DNA of 31,214 bases from a virus: IMG/VR virus record IMGVR_UViG_3300043772_000468, positions 1-31,214 of that record; one strand, written 5' to 3'. Made by a program: the position numbers and the translations under genes. Shown one piece after another: positions 1-31,214 of this stretch. Position 1 is the first letter of the stretch, and the number at the start of each line of letters is the position of its first letter. The notes beneath the pieces are model-generated. The model worked only from the letters and a program-made list of their open reading frames with translations. It was not told the origin of the DNA and did not search any database.

Positions 1-1453
1 ATTGACGGGCAATGTGCCGAACGCCACGGGCTAAGTTGTCACCATAATGATACGTGCCAACATCGCCTTCACGCTGACGCGCAAGAATGGCTTTGCCTGA
101 ACGCTCATTGGAACCCATGCCTAATGAGGCGTTGTACTGGCCTGTAGTTGACTTGATGTCTTCAGCAGCGCCCGCCTTGGCCTGTAGAAGGCCGCTGGAG
201 GCCATTGGCGGTTGAGCACGCTGTGGTAGTGGCAGCGTAGCGCCTTGCCCGTCTGTAACGTCTGGATTGACCTCCAGATAAGGCCAGTTTTGAGTGTTGG
301 CGGTCTTCCACTTGTCTTCGTAGCCTTCAAACTGACCACCGTAGCCAATAAATGGCGCTTTAGGGGCCAAGGCAAGCATTTCTGCCTCTTGGGACACCCA
401 ATAGTTATACATCCGTTGGGCATCTTTGGCATTTCGCACCAAGCCCGAAACATACAAGCGCCCATCTACCTCAAATTCATTGCCGACAATACGAACTACG
501 GGGATGTACTTGCCCACCCACTCGCGCTGCTCCAAGATTTCATAGCCATTGATCTTGCAGTACCGCACTTTTTGGCGGTCAGACTCACGCGACTTGATAG
601 GTTTGCCAAAATATGCTTTCAGCGCCTTGTCTTCAGCCGTGCCAGCAAACGCTGTCTGGTTGCCGGGGTACAAATTCAGCGTAGCCGGGTCATAGTCAAT
701 GTAATAGTAATCCGCAATACGGATGGTGTCTTCATTGAGCCAGTTGGAGATAGATTGATCGCCAACACCCAACGATTGCAGCGTTGTAATGGGCGATGCG
801 TCCGGGTACATCCGGGTAAATTCTTCTTTGGTCAAGTCTTCCGTGACAAAACAATACTTGGCATCTGCGCCAGTAGGGTCTTGCATAGTTGGGTCCATGT
901 ACACCGAGAATGAGTTACGAATTCGGCCAATTTTGATGTCTTGGTCAAATGTGTTGTCGTCGCAATACTCTGTCAGCAAACGGACATAGCCTTCACCATA
1001 GGCGACTTGGTTTTCACAGGCGGTGTCATAAGCAACATCAGCATCAGAGATATATTCAATGTGCCGAATCATGCCATTGAAGATTTCCGCAATCTCAATG
1101 TCAGCATTGTCGTCAACCGGGATGACCTTCGCACCTGGGCGGTTCTGTCGCTGGTCGTTAGTAACTTGGCGAACGTGCTGCGGCAGCTTATTGATTGTCA
1201 GCGTAGGCCGTGCATTGATCGTCTGACCTTGCACCGCACCGCGAGTAGCCAACACGTCAGCAGGCCATTGCCAATGATTGTCTGGTGAACCAGCATAGAA
1301 CTTCAGGTCGTCGTTCTCGTCTTCCCGCGACTCCGACAGCGCCAACATAGCCATGTCAAGCCTAGACCGCGCCGTGGCAAGAATGCTGGCATCGCTTTTG
1401 TCTTTGGATGACCCACCAACCGCAACTGCGGCAGCAGCAGAAATGTCACTCAT
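1..1453 (-). CDS. Portal protein, P22-type (partial, C-terminus outside window)
   Basis: An uninterrupted minus-strand frame begins at ATG 1453 (MSDISAAAAV...) and is still open at base 2, giving 484 codons. The translation reads like P22-family portals: an N-terminal region with SRLDMAMLALSESRE, then DDLKFYAG, QHVRQVTNDQRQNRP, the RQVTNDQ signature being typical, then DTACENQVAYGEGYVR and YYYIDYD, and a later segment with GNEFEVDGRLYVSGLVRNA. Portals form the dodecameric ring at the capsid vertex through which terminase packs DNA and to which the neck attaches. P22 portal is about 725 residues, so roughly the last third is missing here. The start overlaps the stop of the preceding 49-residue gene (ATGA), so translation is probably coupled. 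Family assignment is by recognition of sequence pattern and by gene order (terminase just upstream). Confidence 0.9.
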   Translation of the reverse strand, partial: MSDISAAAAVAVGGSSKDKSDASILATARSRLDMAMLALSESREDENDDLKFYAGSPDNHWQWPADVLATRGAVQGQTINARPTLTINKLPQHVRQVTNDQRQNRPGAKVIPVDDNADIEIAEIFNGMIRHIEYISDADVAYDTACENQVAYGEGYVRLLTEYCDDNTFDQDIKIGRIRNSFSVYMDPTMQDPTGADAKYCFVTEDLTKEEFTRMYPDASPITTLQSLGVGDQSISNWLNEDTIRIADYYYIDYDPATLNLYPGNQTAFAGTAEDKALKAYFGKPIKSRESDRQKVRYCKINGYEILEQREWVGKYIPVVRIVGNEFEVDGRLYVSGLVRNAKDAQRMYNYWVSQEAEMLALAPKAPFIGYGGQFEGYEDKWKTANTQNWPYLEVNPDVTDGQGATLPLPQRAQPPMASSGLLQAKAGAAEDIKSTTGQYNASLGMGSNERSGKAILARQREGDVGTYHYGDNLARGVRHIARQ

Positions 1454-2297: not shown

Positions 2298-3824
2298 TTA
2301 ACTTCCCATCCAGCCAGTTGAAACCGCACCACGATCACTTACCCGTAGTGTACGAGCCTTTTCAGTGTACTCCCTATGCGCCACCGGGAACGCAAACGTC
2401 ACGCATATCGCATCCGCCGCATCAGGTGAAGCCAAACCCCGTGACTTCATATCCTTCTTGGACTCCAGAAAGATAGTCCCCCTAGAATCCGGCTTCATCA
2501 TAGGCGAAATCAAATCAGTTTTCAAGAAACGATCACTTGGAATGCTTGCTGACTTAAGCCAGTCCCGCATATCCCCCCACATCTGCGCCCTCATATTGCC
2601 ATACATTATAGGGTTCTTGGCCTTATTGCCAAAGTTGACCCCCTTAATCTTATAGCGCTGCTCCTTGAGCCTGTCCACAATCCCCGCGCCCAATCCCCCC
2701 TCATCAATCACCACCAGCGTAGGCTTGAACTCCTCTATCGCCTCAATCACATGACCCACCACCGTCATCGTATCGTCCCCCCGATGCCGCATGATCTTAA
2801 TAATATCCCGACCTTGCCTCACCGCAATCACCGTCGCATCCGCGCCAAACCGCGCCGGGTCAACCCCAATCACAATCGGTGCAGACTGATCTTTGTACTT
2901 GGGCCGCTTCATCGCATCATCCACCACCGAACTAGAAATGAACTGGTCATCCCCCGCATTGGGAAACATTCCATACACCTCCACATGAGCCTGCGCACTG
3001 TCCGGCCCATACTCATTAATAATCCGTTCATACACCTGCTTGTCCGTCCCCTCCACCGTCCGAGCGTCCACCACTCGAGATTTCCAAAACTCCCGCTTGG
3101 AATTAAACGCCTCATAGAAATACCCCGTGTTGCGCCGTGGATTTGAGAACGCCATCCAAAAACGATTCGGCGTGTTCTCCGTAAAGAATCCAGATGTGAC
3201 CGCCCAGATGCTGTCGTCAATACCACTGGCCTCATCGAAGATCACCAGCACACCGTCAAAGTTGTGTACACCAGCATAAGCATCAGGATTCTCAGCCGAC
3301 CAAAGCCTACCTTCCACTCCCCAATAGCGCGTGCCTTTCTTTAGATCCCGCTCCACCAGTTCAGTTAGCCACTTGGCTGGCATCACTCGGGTCGCCGAAA
3401 CTTCAAACCAGTGCGAGTTCAATGACATCGCCAGCCACTTGGTAATCTCGGCCCATGTAATGCTGCGTAGCTGAGACTCACTATTGGCCGAAATGATCGT
3501 TGTTGAGCCAATGCGCGTCGATAACATCCAGATTGTCAGCCATGACACTAACGCCGACTTGCCAATACCACGGCCAGACGAAATAGCTTCTTGCAACACC
3601 TCAAAGTCCAACAGACCTTTGTTCCGCTTGATGTGGTCAGCCAAGTCGTTCAGCACTTCCCGTTGCCATTTGCGAGGCCCACTGAAAGTTTCCAGTGGCG
3701 TACCCTTAACGCCCCACGGGAATACCAGCATCACAAACGCCAGTGGGTTGTCTTTGATCTGTGGCGACCACAGCCGCGCCATCAGTTCCTGTTCGTCTTC
3801 AGCGCTGTATTTGGTCGATTGCAT
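2298..3824 (-). CDS. terL: Terminase large subunit (TerL)
   Basis: The packaging motor ATPase and nuclease, 508 residues, a normal length. The ATPase domain shows a Walker A-like SSGRGIGKS (about 82-90) and Walker B VLVIFDEA (about 192-199) with the following acidic residue. The RuvC/RNase H-like nuclease domain shows IGVDPARFGADATVIA (about 319-334, first acidic residue D322), VVIDEGGLGAG (about 371-381) and a late PDAADAICV (about 467-475). It would translocate DNA through the portal and cut concatemers. Start ATG 3824 has GAGG six bases upstream and lies inside the end of the small-subunit candidate (26-base overlap). Downstream come small proteins and the portal, the standard order. Confidence 0.96.
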   Translation of the reverse strand: MQSTKYSAEDEQELMARLWSPQIKDNPLAFVMLVFPWGVKGTPLETFSGPRKWQREVLNDLADHIKRNKGLLDFEVLQEAISSGRGIGKSALVSWLTIWMLSTRIGSTTIISANSESQLRSITWAEITKWLAMSLNSHWFEVSATRVMPAKWLTELVERDLKKGTRYWGVEGRLWSAENPDAYAGVHNFDGVLVIFDEASGIDDSIWAVTSGFFTENTPNRFWMAFSNPRRNTGYFYEAFNSKREFWKSRVVDARTVEGTDKQVYERIINEYGPDSAQAHVEVYGMFPNAGDDQFISSSVVDDAMKRPKYKDQSAPIVIGVDPARFGADATVIAVRQGRDIIKIMRHRGDDTMTVVGHVIEAIEEFKPTLVVIDEGGLGAGIVDRLKEQRYKIKGVNFGNKAKNPIMYGNMRAQMWGDMRDWLKSASIPSDRFLKTDLISPMMKPDSRGTIFLESKKDMKSRGLASPDAADAICVTFAFPVAHREYTEKARTLRVSDRGAVSTGWMGS

Positions 3825-4209
3825 CTATTACCTCTATGACTCGTAGTTCAGCGTCAGCCAACGCCTGCGTGATTGATATGCGTTGGTCGATGTCAACCGA
3901 GATGGACTGCTTGGCTACCCAGCCGTGTTGATGCTTGAGAATTTCGAGCGCGGCCTTGGCATCGCCGCCTCTGGCCGCTTCATGGAGAAGATGCGCCATC
4001 TCCCTCTCTCCGTCTGCTTTGCCTTTAAGCGCCGCCATTTCCGCTACGGGGTCAAGTATGCAGAGTTGCCGATACTCAGTAGGCAGCATTCCAGATGCAA
4101 GCGCGAGTGTGTCGCCTTTGAGTCCCATCTTGGCGGCATCGTAAATGGACTGTAAGCGAGTCTCTGTCGCTTTGACCTCACGAATAGTGAGCGGGAATGA
4201 CTTGAACAT
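3799..4209 (-). CDS. Candidate terminase small subunit (136 aa)
   Basis: ATG 4209 (MFKSFPLTIREVK) is preferred over the upstream TTG because GGAG precedes it by five bases. The protein is acidic to neutral and mostly helical: an N-terminal part with TRLQSIYDAAKMGLKGDTLALASGM resembling the helix-turn-helix region by which small terminases recognise packaging sites, then a helical middle with AEMAALKGKADGEREMA and ILKHQHGW, the latter frequent in phage small terminases. Evidence for the assignment is the motif pattern plus position directly upstream of, and overlapping, terL. It is the first gene of the leftward packaging operon, next to the repeat-rich control region. No membrane segments. 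Confidence 0.72.
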   Translation of the reverse strand: MFKSFPLTIREVKATETRLQSIYDAAKMGLKGDTLALASGMLPTEYRQLCILDPVAEMAALKGKADGEREMAHLLHEAARGGDAKAALEILKHQHGWVAKQSISVDIDQRISITQALADAELRVIEVIDAIDQIQR

Positions 4210-4330
4210 TTGTTCTCCATGCGTAGGCAAGTGGCTGGAATTTTATATTAAAAAAAATTTGTTCGTGAAGGCTCCGTAGCCGCTGGCCCTTTCGCCGGGG
4301 CCTCCCCCCCCTGGTCGCGGCCAAAATGCA
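4210..4330. other. Non-coding GC-rich segment upstream of small terminase; possible packaging site
   Basis: Between the small terminase start and the repeat array there is an A/T stretch (about 4240-4262) and then a strikingly GC-rich block, including an eight-C run at 4304-4311 and a possible stem GGCCC (4285-4289) with GGGCC (4298-4302). A smaller GGCT/AGCC hairpin precedes it. No coding frame is credible here. Position just before terS is where cos or pac sites often lie, so a packaging role is a reasonable but unproven inference. It would also be part of the 5' leader of any terminase transcript started further right. Confidence 0.35.
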
Positions 4331-4664
4331 TGTGGGCTATGTGGGCTATGCCTACGCGAGTCGAATCACGCTATTAGATGTAGGCAGTGTGGGCTATGCG
4401 TTGTCAAGTGCAAGTGTGGGTCATGTGGGCTATGCCAACACAACCCTGATGCCTGCTACAGGGGAAACCATGCGCCGGTCATTTGTGGGTCATGTGGGCT
4501 ATGTTTCGGGGGAATTTCAGTCGCACTGTCTCTTTAACTATATAAGCTATTACTTATATATATCTAAAATCCAAAGTAAGATAAATAGATAGCCCACATA
4601 GCCTACCCATTGGGGAACAGGCCATTTCCGGGATGCCCACAGACTACCCACATAGGCACCCACA
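4331..4664. repeat. Iteron-like TGTGGGCTATG repeat array flanking an AT-rich core
   Basis: Exact TGTGGGCTATG copies occur at 4331-4341, 4340-4350, 4388-4398, 4424-4434 and 4493-4503, and the variant TGTGGGTCATG at 4415-4425 and 4484-4494; pairs overlap by two bases. After an AT-rich core the motif is inverted: ATAGCCCACATA at 4589-4600, TACCCACATAG at 4645-4655, and CACCCACA at 4657-4664. A further direct copy (TATGTGGGCTAT, 4767-4778) lies inside the next gene. The arrangement, two converging clusters around a low-GC core between divergent operons, resembles iteron origins or multi-site operators. No coding frame here is credible; the plus-strand frame through it only spells VGY repeats caused by the DNA repeat. 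Confidence 0.8.
4531..4590. promoter_or_regulatory. AT-rich core (18% GC) between divergent operons
   Basis: Sixty bases with 11 G/C, containing TATATAAG, TTATATATATC and a TTATATAGT-like sequence on the minus strand. It separates direct from inverted copies of the TGTGGGCTATG motif. I could not find a convincing paired -35/-10 with correct spacing on either strand, so promoters here are suspected only from the divergent gene layout. A DNA unwinding element of a replication origin is the main alternative. Confidence 0.4.
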
Positions 4665-4747
4665 ACGTGCCTACTGTCGCGCATGTGACACATGTTGCAA
4701 GTAAAATCCTTACACTATCGTTCTCACTAATTAATTGGAGTACTCAA

Positions 4748-4834
4748 ATGCTAGTTCGTTTACTGTTATGTGGGCTATTTGTGGGTAGCACATTGGCACT
4801 CATGTTGTCTTATTTTGATTGCCTTACAAAATGA
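4748..4834 (+). CDS. Single-span membrane microprotein (28 aa)
   Basis: ATG 4748 follows GGAG with seven bases between, a good ribosome site. The 28 residues (MLVRLLLCGLFVGSTLALML then SYFDCLTK) are one hydrophobic helix with two cysteines and a short polar tail; it could equally be a leader-type peptide. Its TGA overlaps the ATG of the next gene (ATGA), so translation of the 240-residue cysteine-rich protein is probably coupled to it. A copy of the upstream repeat lies within the coding sequence and encodes part of the helix. First gene of the rightward small-gene operon. Function unknown. Confidence 0.6.
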   Translation: MLVRLLLCGLFVGSTLALMLSYFDCLTK

Positions 4835-6851: not shown

Positions 6852-6873
6852 AGCCCCGTAAGGGGCTTTTTTT
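6851..6873 (+). terminator. Rho-independent terminator, plus-strand operon
   Basis: AAGCCCC (6851-6857), GTAA loop, GGGGCTT (6862-6868), then an uninterrupted T run to 6873. Strong for the rightward operon. Read leftwards it forms the same stem but is followed only by TTTAAAGG, so it would be a weaker terminator for the convergent primase gene, whose stop codon lies within the A/T run. Confidence 0.9.
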
Positions 6874-9127
6874 ATGCTTCAACTAATTTACGTAATTCTG
6901 ACTTCGACGCATGGGCCATGTCGGGCGAACAAAAGACGTGTTTTTTGGTGATCAACTCGCGAGAGGCAATGCGGCCACAGTCGATCCATCCGGCCTCTTT
7001 AAGGGCGTGCAGGAGGGCGGCGGGGACAATCCGCACATTAGGGGGCGCATATAGCTGCAAGTCTTCGCATACCGCGTGGAAAGGCGCCCCAATGACGCCA
7101 TTCACGAATACCCGGCCACGGGTTGTAATTAAGTTGATCAACCAGGATTCGGCGGCGCTGTGGCCGTGCTCAACCATAATCAATTTGGCCTCGGTCATCG
7201 GGGGGACAGCCGATGGGTTGAACGCTGACACATCACGGGTGTGCAGATACTCGGCCACGGCGGCGAAGCCGTTACGGGACTTGTACCATGTCCAGAGGGC
7301 CACGGCATCCGATTCGGGCAGCTTGAGCGCATCCGACCACAAGACGAACCAGCGGCGATCCTCTGAGGGCAATGAGATAGCGACACGCTCATTTGAGAAC
7401 GCCACCACGAAAACCCGGTTAAGCGCTTGGTAAGGGTGCAGTCCCTTGCGGTTAATGGGCAGCAACTCAGGCGGGGCGGCAATGATAGGCTTGAGGGTGT
7501 TCTCCAATGCGCGGCGGTCTTTGGCCTCGGCTTGGCGCAACTCGGCAATCTCCATGACTTCGCACTCAAGGGCATAGCCCCATTGGGACGTTAACTCTTC
7601 ATTTTTGACTAGCGAACAATTGTGCTTGGCAGCACCACCAATAGCCCAAAAGAACGGCGCAAACAGGGTGTCTTTGCCTGAACCATGATTGCCGCCCAGC
7701 AACACGGCGTGATTGATCTTATGGCCGGGAAACTGCACCTTGTGGGCGAAAACGTTCAAGAGGTGCTCGCGCTCGAAATCGACCGGGATCATGCGCTCAA
7801 GGTGGCGCATCCATAGCGAGATGTCGCCCTTAATAGGTGTCGGTCGGGCATCTTTCCAGCGGTTGCCGTACACCAAGCCGTCACGCGATACGAGCACCGA
7901 CTCGCCAGCGGCGTAAGTGATGCCGACCAATGACCGAGCGCCCTTGGCTTGGCGGTTCTCGTCGAACGATATGCTCGCCTCGACTTTGCGCTGGGTGTGG
8001 ATCGACAAGCATTTTATGTGCCTGAACACCGCATTGAATGACTTACGCATTATTTCGCGGCGGTCTTGCATATCAAAATAACCGTCATCATCTTGGAGGT
8101 ACGCAAAACGCTCATACCAAGATGCCTTTTCAATGCGGCCGAGTTCACGCTGCTCGACTTGAGCAATCACGGCGGCGGCTTCATCGGGGTAGTCCGGCGT
8201 AGGGGCCAGCTTGGACAATGCGCCGTCCATGACAGCGGCCAGCAACTCGTCACGCAGACCGTGCGAATGCTTAGGGCCACCTTGGGAATCAACCCACGTC
8301 AGATAGGCGGCGCTGTCCCACTCGGCGCAATGCTCATGCAAGCAACAGTAGGCGCGATTCAAAGGGTTATAGCGGCCCATCGGGTTACCGTCTGAGTGAG
8401 CCTCATGGTTTGGACAGACCACGCCCCACCATCCGCTCGAATTGCCTTTTTCCAACAAGTCGCCTTGGGTTGCAACCCACGCCAGCACATCGTCACCGCC
8501 GTCATCGGTCAGGCGAATGGATCGGTGGGTAGATGTGTCGGCAGGCAATGGCTTGACACCAAGGGCGGCGCATATCTCAGGCAGGGAAAACTCACGGTCT
8601 GGGTGGAAATCTGCCAAATTGGAAGCAAAATTGTTTTTGCCGGGCTTGAGGTTGATTGAACCGGGCAATCTAAAGTTACGCACCGCATTGATCGCGCCAC
8701 CATCGGTATAGCCTGCCTCGGCAATGGCGACAATGGCCGCGCTAAAGTCGCCCTTGGTCGGTTGGTCGTCAAGCGCAAAGGTGTAACCGTACTGGTAATT
8801 ATTGGGTGATGTCTCCATAATCCAAGTCGGGGCGATGGGTGGGACTTTGGCCTTAGTGCCAACGTCATCCAGCACCAGAAAAGCGACACGCTCACAATTG
8901 TCAGCACGGGCAGACGGGCGGTTGGCCTCAAACCGATCCAGAATGAAACAACCCGTGTTGGCGTACCAAGCCTGACCAGGCTTCCACTTTTCAGGCAGAT
9001 AAGCAGGCCAACTACACTTGAGAGCGCCATCGGCGTGGAACGCCTCGGGAACCGCAGGCTTCTGCCGCACAATCAGAACTGTCTCGCCATCGGGGGCGAT
9101 ACTTGATAAGTAATCCAGAAAATTCAT
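6872..9127 (-). CDS. Primase-helicase (RepB-like/AEP primase, zinc motif, DUF5906-type helicase)
   Basis: A 751-residue replication protein. The N-terminal third has FLVLDDVG (83-90) and FRLPGSINL (152-160), as in RepB-like archaeo-eukaryotic primases. A middle cysteine/histidine region, C238-PNH ... C261/C262 LHEHC267, suits a zinc-binding site. The C-terminal part has Walker A GGNHGSGKD (478-486), a Walker B-like VMEIAEL (524-530), and later VVAFSNERVAISLPSEDRR, typical of the virus-type SF3-like helicases annotated DUF5906. It would prime and unwind phage DNA. Its ATG overlaps the polymerase stop (ATGA) and has TGGAAA before it. Last gene of the leftward replication operon, ending at the bidirectional hairpin. 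Confidence 0.88.
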   Translation of the reverse strand: MNFLDYLSSIAPDGETVLIVRQKPAVPEAFHADGALKCSWPAYLPEKWKPGQAWYANTGCFILDRFEANRPSARADNCERVAFLVLDDVGTKAKVPPIAPTWIMETSPNNYQYGYTFALDDQPTKGDFSAAIVAIAEAGYTDGGAINAVRNFRLPGSINLKPGKNNFASNLADFHPDREFSLPEICAALGVKPLPADTSTHRSIRLTDDGGDDVLAWVATQGDLLEKGNSSGWWGVVCPNHEAHSDGNPMGRYNPLNRAYCCLHEHCAEWDSAAYLTWVDSQGGPKHSHGLRDELLAAVMDGALSKLAPTPDYPDEAAAVIAQVEQRELGRIEKASWYERFAYLQDDDGYFDMQDRREIMRKSFNAVFRHIKCLSIHTQRKVEASISFDENRQAKGARSLVGITYAAGESVLVSRDGLVYGNRWKDARPTPIKGDISLWMRHLERMIPVDFEREHLLNVFAHKVQFPGHKINHAVLLGGNHGSGKDTLFAPFFWAIGGAAKHNCSLVKNEELTSQWGYALECEVMEIAELRQAEAKDRRALENTLKPIIAAPPELLPINRKGLHPYQALNRVFVVAFSNERVAISLPSEDRRWFVLWSDALKLPESDAVALWTWYKSRNGFAAVAEYLHTRDVSAFNPSAVPPMTEAKLIMVEHGHSAAESWLINLITTRGRVFVNGVIGAPFHAVCEDLQLYAPPNVRIVPAALLHALKEAGWIDCGRIASRELITKKHVFCSPDMAHASKSELRKLVEA

Positions 9128-11007
9128 TTTCCATACCTTTCCATTATTGAGACTTCAGCGTCTAGGGGTAAACCCGCAGCCCAAATGGGTGGGGTACACA
9201 TGGTCGAACGCAATGCGTCAGCATCTGGCGCATTTGTTTCGATCACAATTTCGTCGTGAACGTGCAGCACTACATCGTCCAGTTGGCGCAGCGCAGCGCG
9301 TAAAAGATCATTGGCGACAGCCTGAGTGATATTCTCGCAGGCCAGACCCTTCCACAGACGGGCGCGGGGCCATTCTTTGGCGTCAGCGGCAGGCTTCCAA
9401 GCGGACTTGGCGTAAGTAATACCATCGGTTTCCAGACGAGCGTAGGGGTAACAAAGAACCCGGCCAGAGGGTAAGGCATACCAAAGGTGCTGGCCGTCAA
9501 ATAGATAGACGACTCGACCAATGGCTATCTCTTTACCTTTATTACGCATGGCGCGGGTGTAAGCAGATTCTAGGTCTTGCCAGTACCGAACTGCCCAAGG
9601 GTTTGCCCTACGCCATCCGTCAACCATGCGCTTGGCGTCTGACTCAGGCAGTGAAATACCGTAGGCGCGGCCCATCGCAGCGAAAGCGCCGATGCCACCA
9701 GCAAACCCGCAGGCCAACTCTTGAACCTTGCCAATTTGGCGCTGGTCTTTGTTGACCATATCGACAGGGACGTGAAAGGTCGCACTGGCGTTGACTTTAT
9801 AAACGTCCTCGCCAGACGCGAATAGCTTCAGCTTTTCCTCGCCTGCCTTGCAGTTAGACAACCAAGGGTTTACCCTAGCTTCAATAGCAGCCCAATCAGC
9901 AACGACCAGAACCTTGCCGGGGGCTGGCATCAGCGCAGGGCGCAGCATCCCCTTGAGAACATCAGTGACGCGCTTTCCAAACTGAGGAACAATCGAATGA
10001 CCGCGAACCATCGCCTGGCGCACATCATCAGGCTGGGCAGCGCACTTGCGGGTGAAGTTGTGGACTTGAGCGCCGTAGCTGCTGGCCCGGCCTGTGGCAC
10101 TGCCACCAGCAAAGACAAACGCACCGCGCACTCTGGCATCTTCTTCGTCGGCCAGTTGGGCCAGACGATTGAACTTGGCTACGCTGGATGCCCACAGGTC
10201 GTCGGCGCACTGGATGACTTCCTGCACATCTGGCGGCACACCATCGCAATTCAACAGATTAGCCCGAACGGTCTTGTCAATGCTAATCTTGCCATCCTTC
10301 TGCATCAGCTTACGAGCATCTTCATCCACACGCTCGAAAACCCAATCGCGCATCTTGGGGGAGCGAACGCTGGTGATTGCACCGCATGTCACCTCGGCGA
10401 CAATAGCCTGTATCTCAAGCAATTCAGCGGCGGCGTACTTGACTGCTGCTTTACACAGCGCCACATCCACCAGCACGCCACGGTCATTGATGCGCTCGTT
10501 GACATGGTAGTCGCCTAGTTCTTCAGCCGACAGGGGGCGCATGGACTTGCTGATGGCACGCATGGCCCGAACGTCCTGCTCACAGTAGGCAATCATTTCG
10601 GCGGTCAACTCGGCCGACTCTTCGAAAGGGGGGACGGACATCTTGCGGATGAGCGCAGCGCCCCGGTGGTCTTTCTTCATGGATGCGCCAGCAAAGCGGC
10701 CAACGTCTTCCAGCGAACCAGGCGCACAGTTGGCACGGGATTGGGCGGCGGTGCAATAAAACTGCTCCAGCGCGTAATCTTGCTGTAAGACGTACCAAAA
10801 GATCAGCCGCTCAAATGCGGCGTTGTGGGCGTAGATTATCTGGCCTGTAAAGTCAGGCAATGGGCCTGATGTCCAAGTCTGCACCTCGCCATCATCTATG
10901 GCGTAAGACATACACAGCACTTCAGTAGTGCCATGCTGGGCGTAGTTATAAACGCCTGCGGCCTTGAGGTCGCAGTGTGAACGGGTTTCAAAGTCGATGT
11001 AGATCAT
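9124..11007 (-). CDS. DNA polymerase, family A with 3'-5' exonuclease
   Basis: The replicative polymerase. I prefer ATG 11007 (MIYIDFETRS): it has TTGGAAA upstream, the same context as the next gene, and puts the exonuclease motif at the N-terminus as usual; ATG 11037 would add ten residues without a ribosome site. Numbering from 11007: exonuclease DFET (5-8), AHNAAFE (60-66), YCEQDVRAM (141-149). Polymerase motif A VVADWAAIEARV (368-379), motif B R423-x3-K427-x3-L431 with F435-A436, motif C HVHDEIVIE (582-590). Position 431 corresponds to E. coli Pol I Phe762 and is leucine here. There is no 5'-3' exonuclease domain. Length 627 fits phage enzymes of this group. Confidence 0.93.
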   Translation of the reverse strand: MIYIDFETRSHCDLKAAGVYNYAQHGTTEVLCMSYAIDDGEVQTWTSGPLPDFTGQIIYAHNAAFERLIFWYVLQQDYALEQFYCTAAQSRANCAPGSLEDVGRFAGASMKKDHRGAALIRKMSVPPFEESAELTAEMIAYCEQDVRAMRAISKSMRPLSAEELGDYHVNERINDRGVLVDVALCKAAVKYAAAELLEIQAIVAEVTCGAITSVRSPKMRDWVFERVDEDARKLMQKDGKISIDKTVRANLLNCDGVPPDVQEVIQCADDLWASSVAKFNRLAQLADEEDARVRGAFVFAGGSATGRASSYGAQVHNFTRKCAAQPDDVRQAMVRGHSIVPQFGKRVTDVLKGMLRPALMPAPGKVLVVADWAAIEARVNPWLSNCKAGEEKLKLFASGEDVYKVNASATFHVPVDMVNKDQRQIGKVQELACGFAGGIGAFAAMGRAYGISLPESDAKRMVDGWRRANPWAVRYWQDLESAYTRAMRNKGKEIAIGRVVYLFDGQHLWYALPSGRVLCYPYARLETDGITYAKSAWKPAADAKEWPRARLWKGLACENITQAVANDLLRAALRQLDDVVLHVHDEIVIETNAPDADALRSTMCTPPIWAAGLPLDAEVSIMERYGK

Positions 11008-11048
11008 TTTCCAATGCCCACTCTTGCGAATGGGCATCAGGAAATGGA

Positions 11049-31002: not shown

Positions 31003-31214
31003 TTAGCGGATACGCTGTGCTTCCCACTTCTTCATCTGTCGCACACGGTCTGCTTCAATCCACTGTGAGGCCGACATCGTTTTAATAGAACGAGGGTCGG
31101 TAGTGTCCATTGCTGGCGAACCAGAAGACCGCGCATTAACAGGTGAAATCGGCGCTGGCGCAGACGTCGTTTTTCTCATGGGAGGGTCGGTGGCTAATTT
31201 AGCCTCAATCTTCC
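31003..31214 (-). CDS. Scaffolding protein, C-terminal part (partial)
   Basis: An open frame enters from the right edge and ends at TAA 31003-31005. The visible 69 residues include proline/alanine-rich SAPAPISPVNARS and TTDPRSIKTMSASQWIEADR followed by VRQMKKWEAQRIR. A charged helix-turn-helix-like end with WIEADRxRQ...KWEAQR is typical of P22-type scaffold C-termini, which bind coat. The gene directly precedes coat, as expected. Its N-terminal part lies outside the window. Confidence 0.8.
   Translation of the reverse strand, partial: KIEAKLATDPPMRKTTSAPAPISPVNARSSGSPAMDTTDPRSIKTMSASQWIEADRVRQMKKWEAQRIR

Follow-up and report, generated by a model that had tools for sequence, protein, structure and literature searches.

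The stretch of DNA analyzed here (the window, a 31,214-base IMG/VR virus record, IMGVR_UViG_3300043772_000468, positions 1-31,214) carries two arrays of short repeats that face each other across an AT-rich core, and the question raised by this locus is whether it is a site where replication starts or one where the neighboring genes are controlled. A first-pass annotation had offered an initiator-bound origin and a cooperative operator side by side; the single site, the GC minimum, the polarity of the arrays and their linkage to the replication module favor the former and the latter is weakened. Judged from these features, positions 4331-4664 probably form a replication origin of the iteron type, served by a primase-helicase that loads itself, which is the best-supported reading and is ranked above its main rival, an operator or enhancer.

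Gene neighborhood of the repeat region

The window phage, a lake phage, is of the P22-like podovirus type, with the portal, terminase and P22-type coat genes all pointing leftward. The portal and scaffold genes are truncated at both ends of the window (1-1453 and 31003-31214), suggesting that the record is a permuted genome lacking a short stretch. The repeat region is flanked by the leftward genes for the small and large terminase subunits (start 4230) and by rightward small early genes. The divergent operons described earlier are found for the terminase and the small early genes, but beyond these the primase/polymerase operon is leftward again (12836-6872), the replication genes lying between about 6.9 and 14.6 kb. 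The genes referred to below are:

2298-3824, minus strand: terminase large subunit gene (phrog_2)
3799-4230, minus strand: terminase small subunit (TerS) gene, assigned from position and linkage to TerL, with no family match
4750-4834, plus strand: small ORF of 27 aa with GGAG upstream, containing forward units at 4769 and 4780
6872-9127, minus strand: primase-helicase gene, proposed initiator (DUF5906; predicted D5/NrS-1/PriRep1-type SF3 fold, ending in a winged helix that spans about residues 658-750)
9124-11037, minus strand: family A DNA polymerase gene, in the replication module shared with the primase-helicase

Repeat arrays and AT-rich core

The first-pass annotation had reported five exact repeat copies and two variants within 4331-4503, inverted copies facing them across a 60-base core with 11 G/C, and a further copy inside the first rightward gene, and each of these could be located. 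The exact copies of TGTGGGCTATG start at 4331, 4340, 4388, 4424 and 4493 and the two copies of TGTGGGTCATG at 4415 and 4484. The repeat unit is 9 bp long and is arranged in tandem pairs, in which TGTGGGCTA or TGTGGGTCA is followed by the next TG:

4331-4350, plus strand: forward iteron pair TGTGGGCTA-TGTGGGCTATG
4379-4398, plus strand: forward iteron pair TGTAGGCAG (first unit)-TGTGGGCTATG
4415-4434, plus strand: forward iteron pair TGTGGGTCA-TGTGGGCTATG
4484-4503, plus strand: forward iteron pair TGTGGGTCA-TGTGGGCTATG, adjoining the AT-rich core
4531-4590, no strand: AT-rich core, candidate DNA unwinding element (11 G/C of 60)
4588-4607, minus strand: reverse iteron pair, TGTGGGCTATC and GGTAGGCTATG
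4636-4664, minus strand: three single reverse units (CCCACA at 4636, 4647 and 4659)

The reverse pair comprises copies at 4588-4598 (one mismatch) and 4597-4607 (two mismatches), with an additional CCCACA at 4593, and the core at 4531-4590 is the lowest-GC 60-mer in the whole window record. The enrichment is far above chance: TGTGGG occurs on the two strands 13 times in 4323-4790 versus 24 times in the remaining window, with 0.37 expected for 4323-4790 (Poisson p ~2e-16), while the maximum in any 468 bases of 300 shuffles was 4. Allowing up to two mismatches the 11-mer occurs 24 times, versus 9.9 +/- 3.1 in shuffles. The convergence of the arrays is imperfect, since a forward copy (4769-4779) lies within the first small rightward ORF, and stray single matches of the tandem pattern TGTNGGNNNTGTNGG are found elsewhere in the window (e.g. 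at 1333 and 20713). Pairing of the forward with the reverse array within one strand was considered and rejected, given a DNA fold z-score of -1.65 and arrays that are mismatched in two relatives (L043, L039). The region has no match in Rfam.

Conservation in related phages

Among the best 80 of 592 loci encoding a TerS relative, nearly all carry TGTNGG arrays of the same layout upstream of terS, with the letter N (G or A, T, or C) depending on lineage. The tandem pattern is present in 25 of 28 records, at essentially one place per genome apart from a few single strays. The consensus architecture consists of 9-bp units (TGT-NNN-Y-N-A) around an AT-rich core, those toward the terminase genes in forward and those toward the early genes in reverse orientation; over 85 de-duplicated loci, in a few of which the core is misplaced, 429 forward and 139 reverse units lie to the left of the core and 107 forward and 320 reverse units to its right. 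Across 787 sites, all beginning with the TGT that the search required, pyrimidines account for 95% of position 7, A for 60% of position 9 and T for 76% of position 10. Of 23 records compared, several of them partial contigs, 17 have no stretch lower in GC than the core.

The array region is usually found 1.3-3.4 kb downstream of the primase-helicase gene with small genes between them. In 600 bp downstream of the primase the dominant TGTNNN unit reaches up to 19 copies, versus a maximum of 3-5 in shuffles, and its center is TGG, GGG, CGG, AGG, GTG, AGT, GGA or AAG (133 loci, not de-duplicated, a minority of which have a top count of only 4-5, in or near the shuffled range). The first-pass annotation had named repeats absent or scrambled in close relatives with intact flanking genes as the outcome that would speak against a functional site, and this is not what the relatives present: number, spacing and letters of the repeats vary while the architecture is kept. 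It knew of no P22-type phage with the motif; among named phages, so far as these were looked at, this is borne out, but many uncultivated relatives carry it.

Other repeat arrangements were observed in the same set. Five loci (L021, L033, L044, L048 and L058) have a second direct-repeat family, approximately AAAATGGCAAGC with a 21-24 bp period, to the left of the forward array on the terminase side. Upstream of terS in L069 and L206 the same layout is built from GTCAAATT repeats with a period of 8 bp, not 9 bp. Finally, an unrelated contig (L003, IMGVR_UViG_3300045534_000130, positions 2640-2880) has TGTGGGNNA arrays that converge, immediately downstream of a gene for a Zn-ribbon/DUF3987 primase-helicase; a search for relatives of this replicon found none.

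Linkage to the replication module

In the window and its closest relatives the array adjoins terS, as would a pac site bound by TerS, the gene of which starts 100 bp away. A pac site would be conserved with, and bound by, its cognate TerS, and the relatives depart from this pattern in two ways. Firstly, the region is also present beside unrelated terminase and portal genes. In four loci found by primase search (L180-L183), the array-core-array region, primase and polymerase of the window type are kept while the region adjoins genes for an unrelated terminase (Terminase_6N) and an SU10-type portal, and two motif-only scans of the viral collection added further contigs with unrelated terminase and portal genes (L242-L244, L256, L269, L286 and L290). 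Secondly, TerS is identical over 143 of 143 residues between L026, with TGTGGG units, and L031, with TGTTGG units. The unrelated neighboring terminases and the identical TerS with different units rule against a pac site, which we regard as extremely improbable.

The motif-only scans yielded 50 records not used before, 33 with the primase and 39 with a window-type terminase; those records without the primase that were checked are mostly short or end near the array, and one (L267) had no match to anything compared. Since the region is kept beside unrelated terminases together with a constant primase and polymerase, it follows the replication module, and the array-core layout accompanies the DNA-copying genes in >100 related phages. 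The distribution of unit classes over the protein trees does not discriminate between the modules (21 changes for the primase versus 24 for the terminase, about 38 when shuffled) and was dropped as a measure; that congruence with the primase is no better counts against the origin reading. In phages with the other terminase, a 68-aa ORF lacking any family match lies within the left part of the origin-like region (L180, 11365-11571).

A candidate initiator and a proposed mechanism

The gene at 6872-9127 encodes a 751-aa protein with DUF5906, relatives of which have a weak RepB_primase match. A profile of 66 relatives searched against the PDB matched the C-terminal region of NrS-1 (E 3e-23), and an AlphaFold model built from the same alignment (pLDDT 85) gave this region as the top Foldseek match (E 4.5e-16), followed by poxvirus D5/E5, ASFV PrimPol and PriRep1 with dsDNA (7pds). 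Over the last 95 residues of the model the elements run helix-helix-helix-strand-strand, and the label of winged helix is read off this secondary-structure order. The prediction is thus an SF3 helicase of the D5/NrS-1/PriRep1 type that ends in a winged helix, the composition of SaPI/PriRep-type initiators. In the Rep helicases of SaPIs and in SCCmec Cch2, origin iterons are recognized via C-terminal domains (PMC7581432), and we infer that the primase-helicase is the binder of the arrays.

The locus has the hallmarks of an iteron origin, namely multiple short direct repeats at one place, an adjoining AT-rich region at the GC minimum, and genetic linkage to the proposed replication initiator that persists across unrelated packaging modules. 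Inward-facing repeats at the most easily melted spot, traveling with the genes that copy DNA, most likely mark a replication start within 4331-4664. The primase-helicase, or a complex containing it, would assemble on both arrays of 9-bp units, which converge on the AT-rich core at 4531-4590, and would melt this core. One helicase ring would then be loaded on each strand so that forks depart in both directions, and synthesis would be started by the primase fused to the helicase together with the phage's family A polymerase. The circular detrended cumulative GC skew, which the first-pass annotation had proposed as a check, reaches its minimum at the site for the window and one relative (G004) but at about 0.2-0.26 of the genome for most others; with an extremum this inconsistent among relatives, it speaks neither for nor against an origin.

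If the origin reading is correct, it provides a predicted origin and initiator for uncultivated podovirus-like phages of fresh water, which form a large group, and the array layout would serve as a marker of the replication module in metagenomic contigs.

The variable center of the repeat unit

The middle trinucleotide of the unit (GGG, TGG, CGG, AGT, GTG or GGA) is mostly uniform within a genome, although 12 of 71 loci are mixed and in some the arrays differ across the core (L043, L039). Within one primase clade, loci with TGTTGG (L145, L151) and TGTGGG (L139, L149) encode primase-helicases that are 97-98% identical overall and have winged-helix domains identical over 97 of 97 residues. Identical domains paired with different units count against the origin reading: the domain does not specify bases 4-6, which rules out the primase winged helix as their reader and leaves the initiator at most a contact with the conserved frame. 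Across the protein families, none of the real core families tracks the unit class (scores near 0.6-0.7 for nearest neighbors sharing it), high scores being confined to small families of overlapping-frame ORFs or trivial families. The unit letters change without a counterpart change in the conserved phage proteins examined, none of which stands out as the expected reader of the repeats.

Most simply, what is read would be the conserved frame (TGT...YNA) together with the 9-bp period, while the middle is tolerated and homogenized. On this view the center is unread and recombination homogenizes its copies; otherwise the repeats would be read by a host protein or by a small phage protein that is exchanged fast. 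That the trinucleotide acts as a specificity barcode, read by such a small phage protein or host factor outside the conserved replication proteins, seems to us quite unlikely; were it so, close relatives would keep private origins, for example avoiding cross-replication or satellites. Fast-changing repeats next to near-constant initiators supply natural phage pairs in which little else differs in the replication module, and which bear on what the initiator reads.

The lack of any conserved phage protein examined that follows the unit class would also suit repeats that belong to an origin or control site but are recognized by a host protein, with the trinucleotide following the host and not a phage gene. 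The unit is loosely similar to a DnaA box (TGTGGATAA), and L165 contains two TTATCCACA boxes. However, the window array has no DnaA box, units of the TGTTGG, TGTAGT and TGTGTG classes are far from any such box, and the boxes (TTWTNCACA) that would characterize a DnaA-dependent origin are missing from the region, making a host reader very improbable. A phage-encoded DnaA-like binder was likewise rejected: a Bac_DnaA_C gene is found neither in the window nor in the 32 relatives searched, and is present only in MW202483.1. In that record, which is the nearest relative in GenBank, positions 31423-31719 of the early region encode a 98-aa protein with DnaA domain IV (Bac_DnaA_C).

Early promoter and the operator alternative

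The main rival to an origin is that the arrays form a multi-site operator or enhancer at which a cooperative regulator toggles between two operons, the late (packaging) one running leftward and the early one running rightward, with no replication start. In almost every locus examined the genes on the two sides of the region diverge, the window repeats reach into the first small ORF, and an operator, too, should be conserved together with the early region. The position of the early promoter bears on this alternative. Relatives have TTGACA-N16-TACAAT at the corresponding place, outside the repeats, and the window has a degenerate counterpart:

4685-4718, plus strand: putative rightward early promoter (TACACT as -10)

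Relatives also have a conserved element, AGGGTAAACACCTA, on the stretch that separates the reverse array from this promoter. It occurs near the array in 34 of 96 loci (L021, L026, L180, L198 and 30 others), was not found in the rest of the 6 kb searched, and is absent from the window. Where element and promoter are both present (15 loci), 24-25 bp separate the start of the element from the -35, and it looks like an operator or UP-type element. A recognizable early promoter that excludes the units and has its own upstream element weakens a pure operator reading. In addition, a search for a repressor-type gene conserved across the family found none, and a genome-minimum AT core between convergent arrays is typical of origins, not operators. 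We therefore consider an operator unlikely and retain the replication origin as the preferred reading.

Comparison with known systems

The kind of origin proposed here is known, while the phage family and the drifting repeat center are undescribed as far as the searched papers show. Satellite phage P4 provides a likeness in its alpha protein, in which primase and helicase are fused and for which multiple short repeats are the binding sites. By description, the P4 origin differs in consisting of two separated sites (ori and crr) with an unrelated repeat.

The closest named genomes are GenBank MW202483.1 (Podoviridae ctNMl277) and OR003940.1 (DSL-LC05, proposed Luchaoviridae), neither record having an origin annotation. 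MW202483.1 has TGTTGGTAG units, an AT core and reverse units at the corresponding place, together with a primase that is 49% identical, and DSL-LC05 has GTGGGTCA-type repeats, the matched gene not being its primase.

In SCCmec, the D5/Primase_C-type helicase Cch2 binds direct repeats of the putative origin through its C-terminal domain (PMC7581432), but these are only three 5-nt iterons, located downstream of cch2, and the helicase is without a fused primase. The origins of SaPIs with self-loading Rep helicases, including SaPI5 PriRep1 (PMC7581432), contain short iterons as does the window, and PriRep1 is an element-encoded primase-helicase of the same fold class by Foldseek, with a C-terminal winged-helix-like domain. 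The SaPI origin lies directly downstream of rep, whereas in the phages 1.3-3.4 kb usually separate the helicase gene from the site, which is flanked by early and packaging genes; this difference counts against the proposed origin. The phage arrays differ further in their 9-bp unit with a lineage-variable center, and their carriers are autonomous podovirus-like phages and not satellites.
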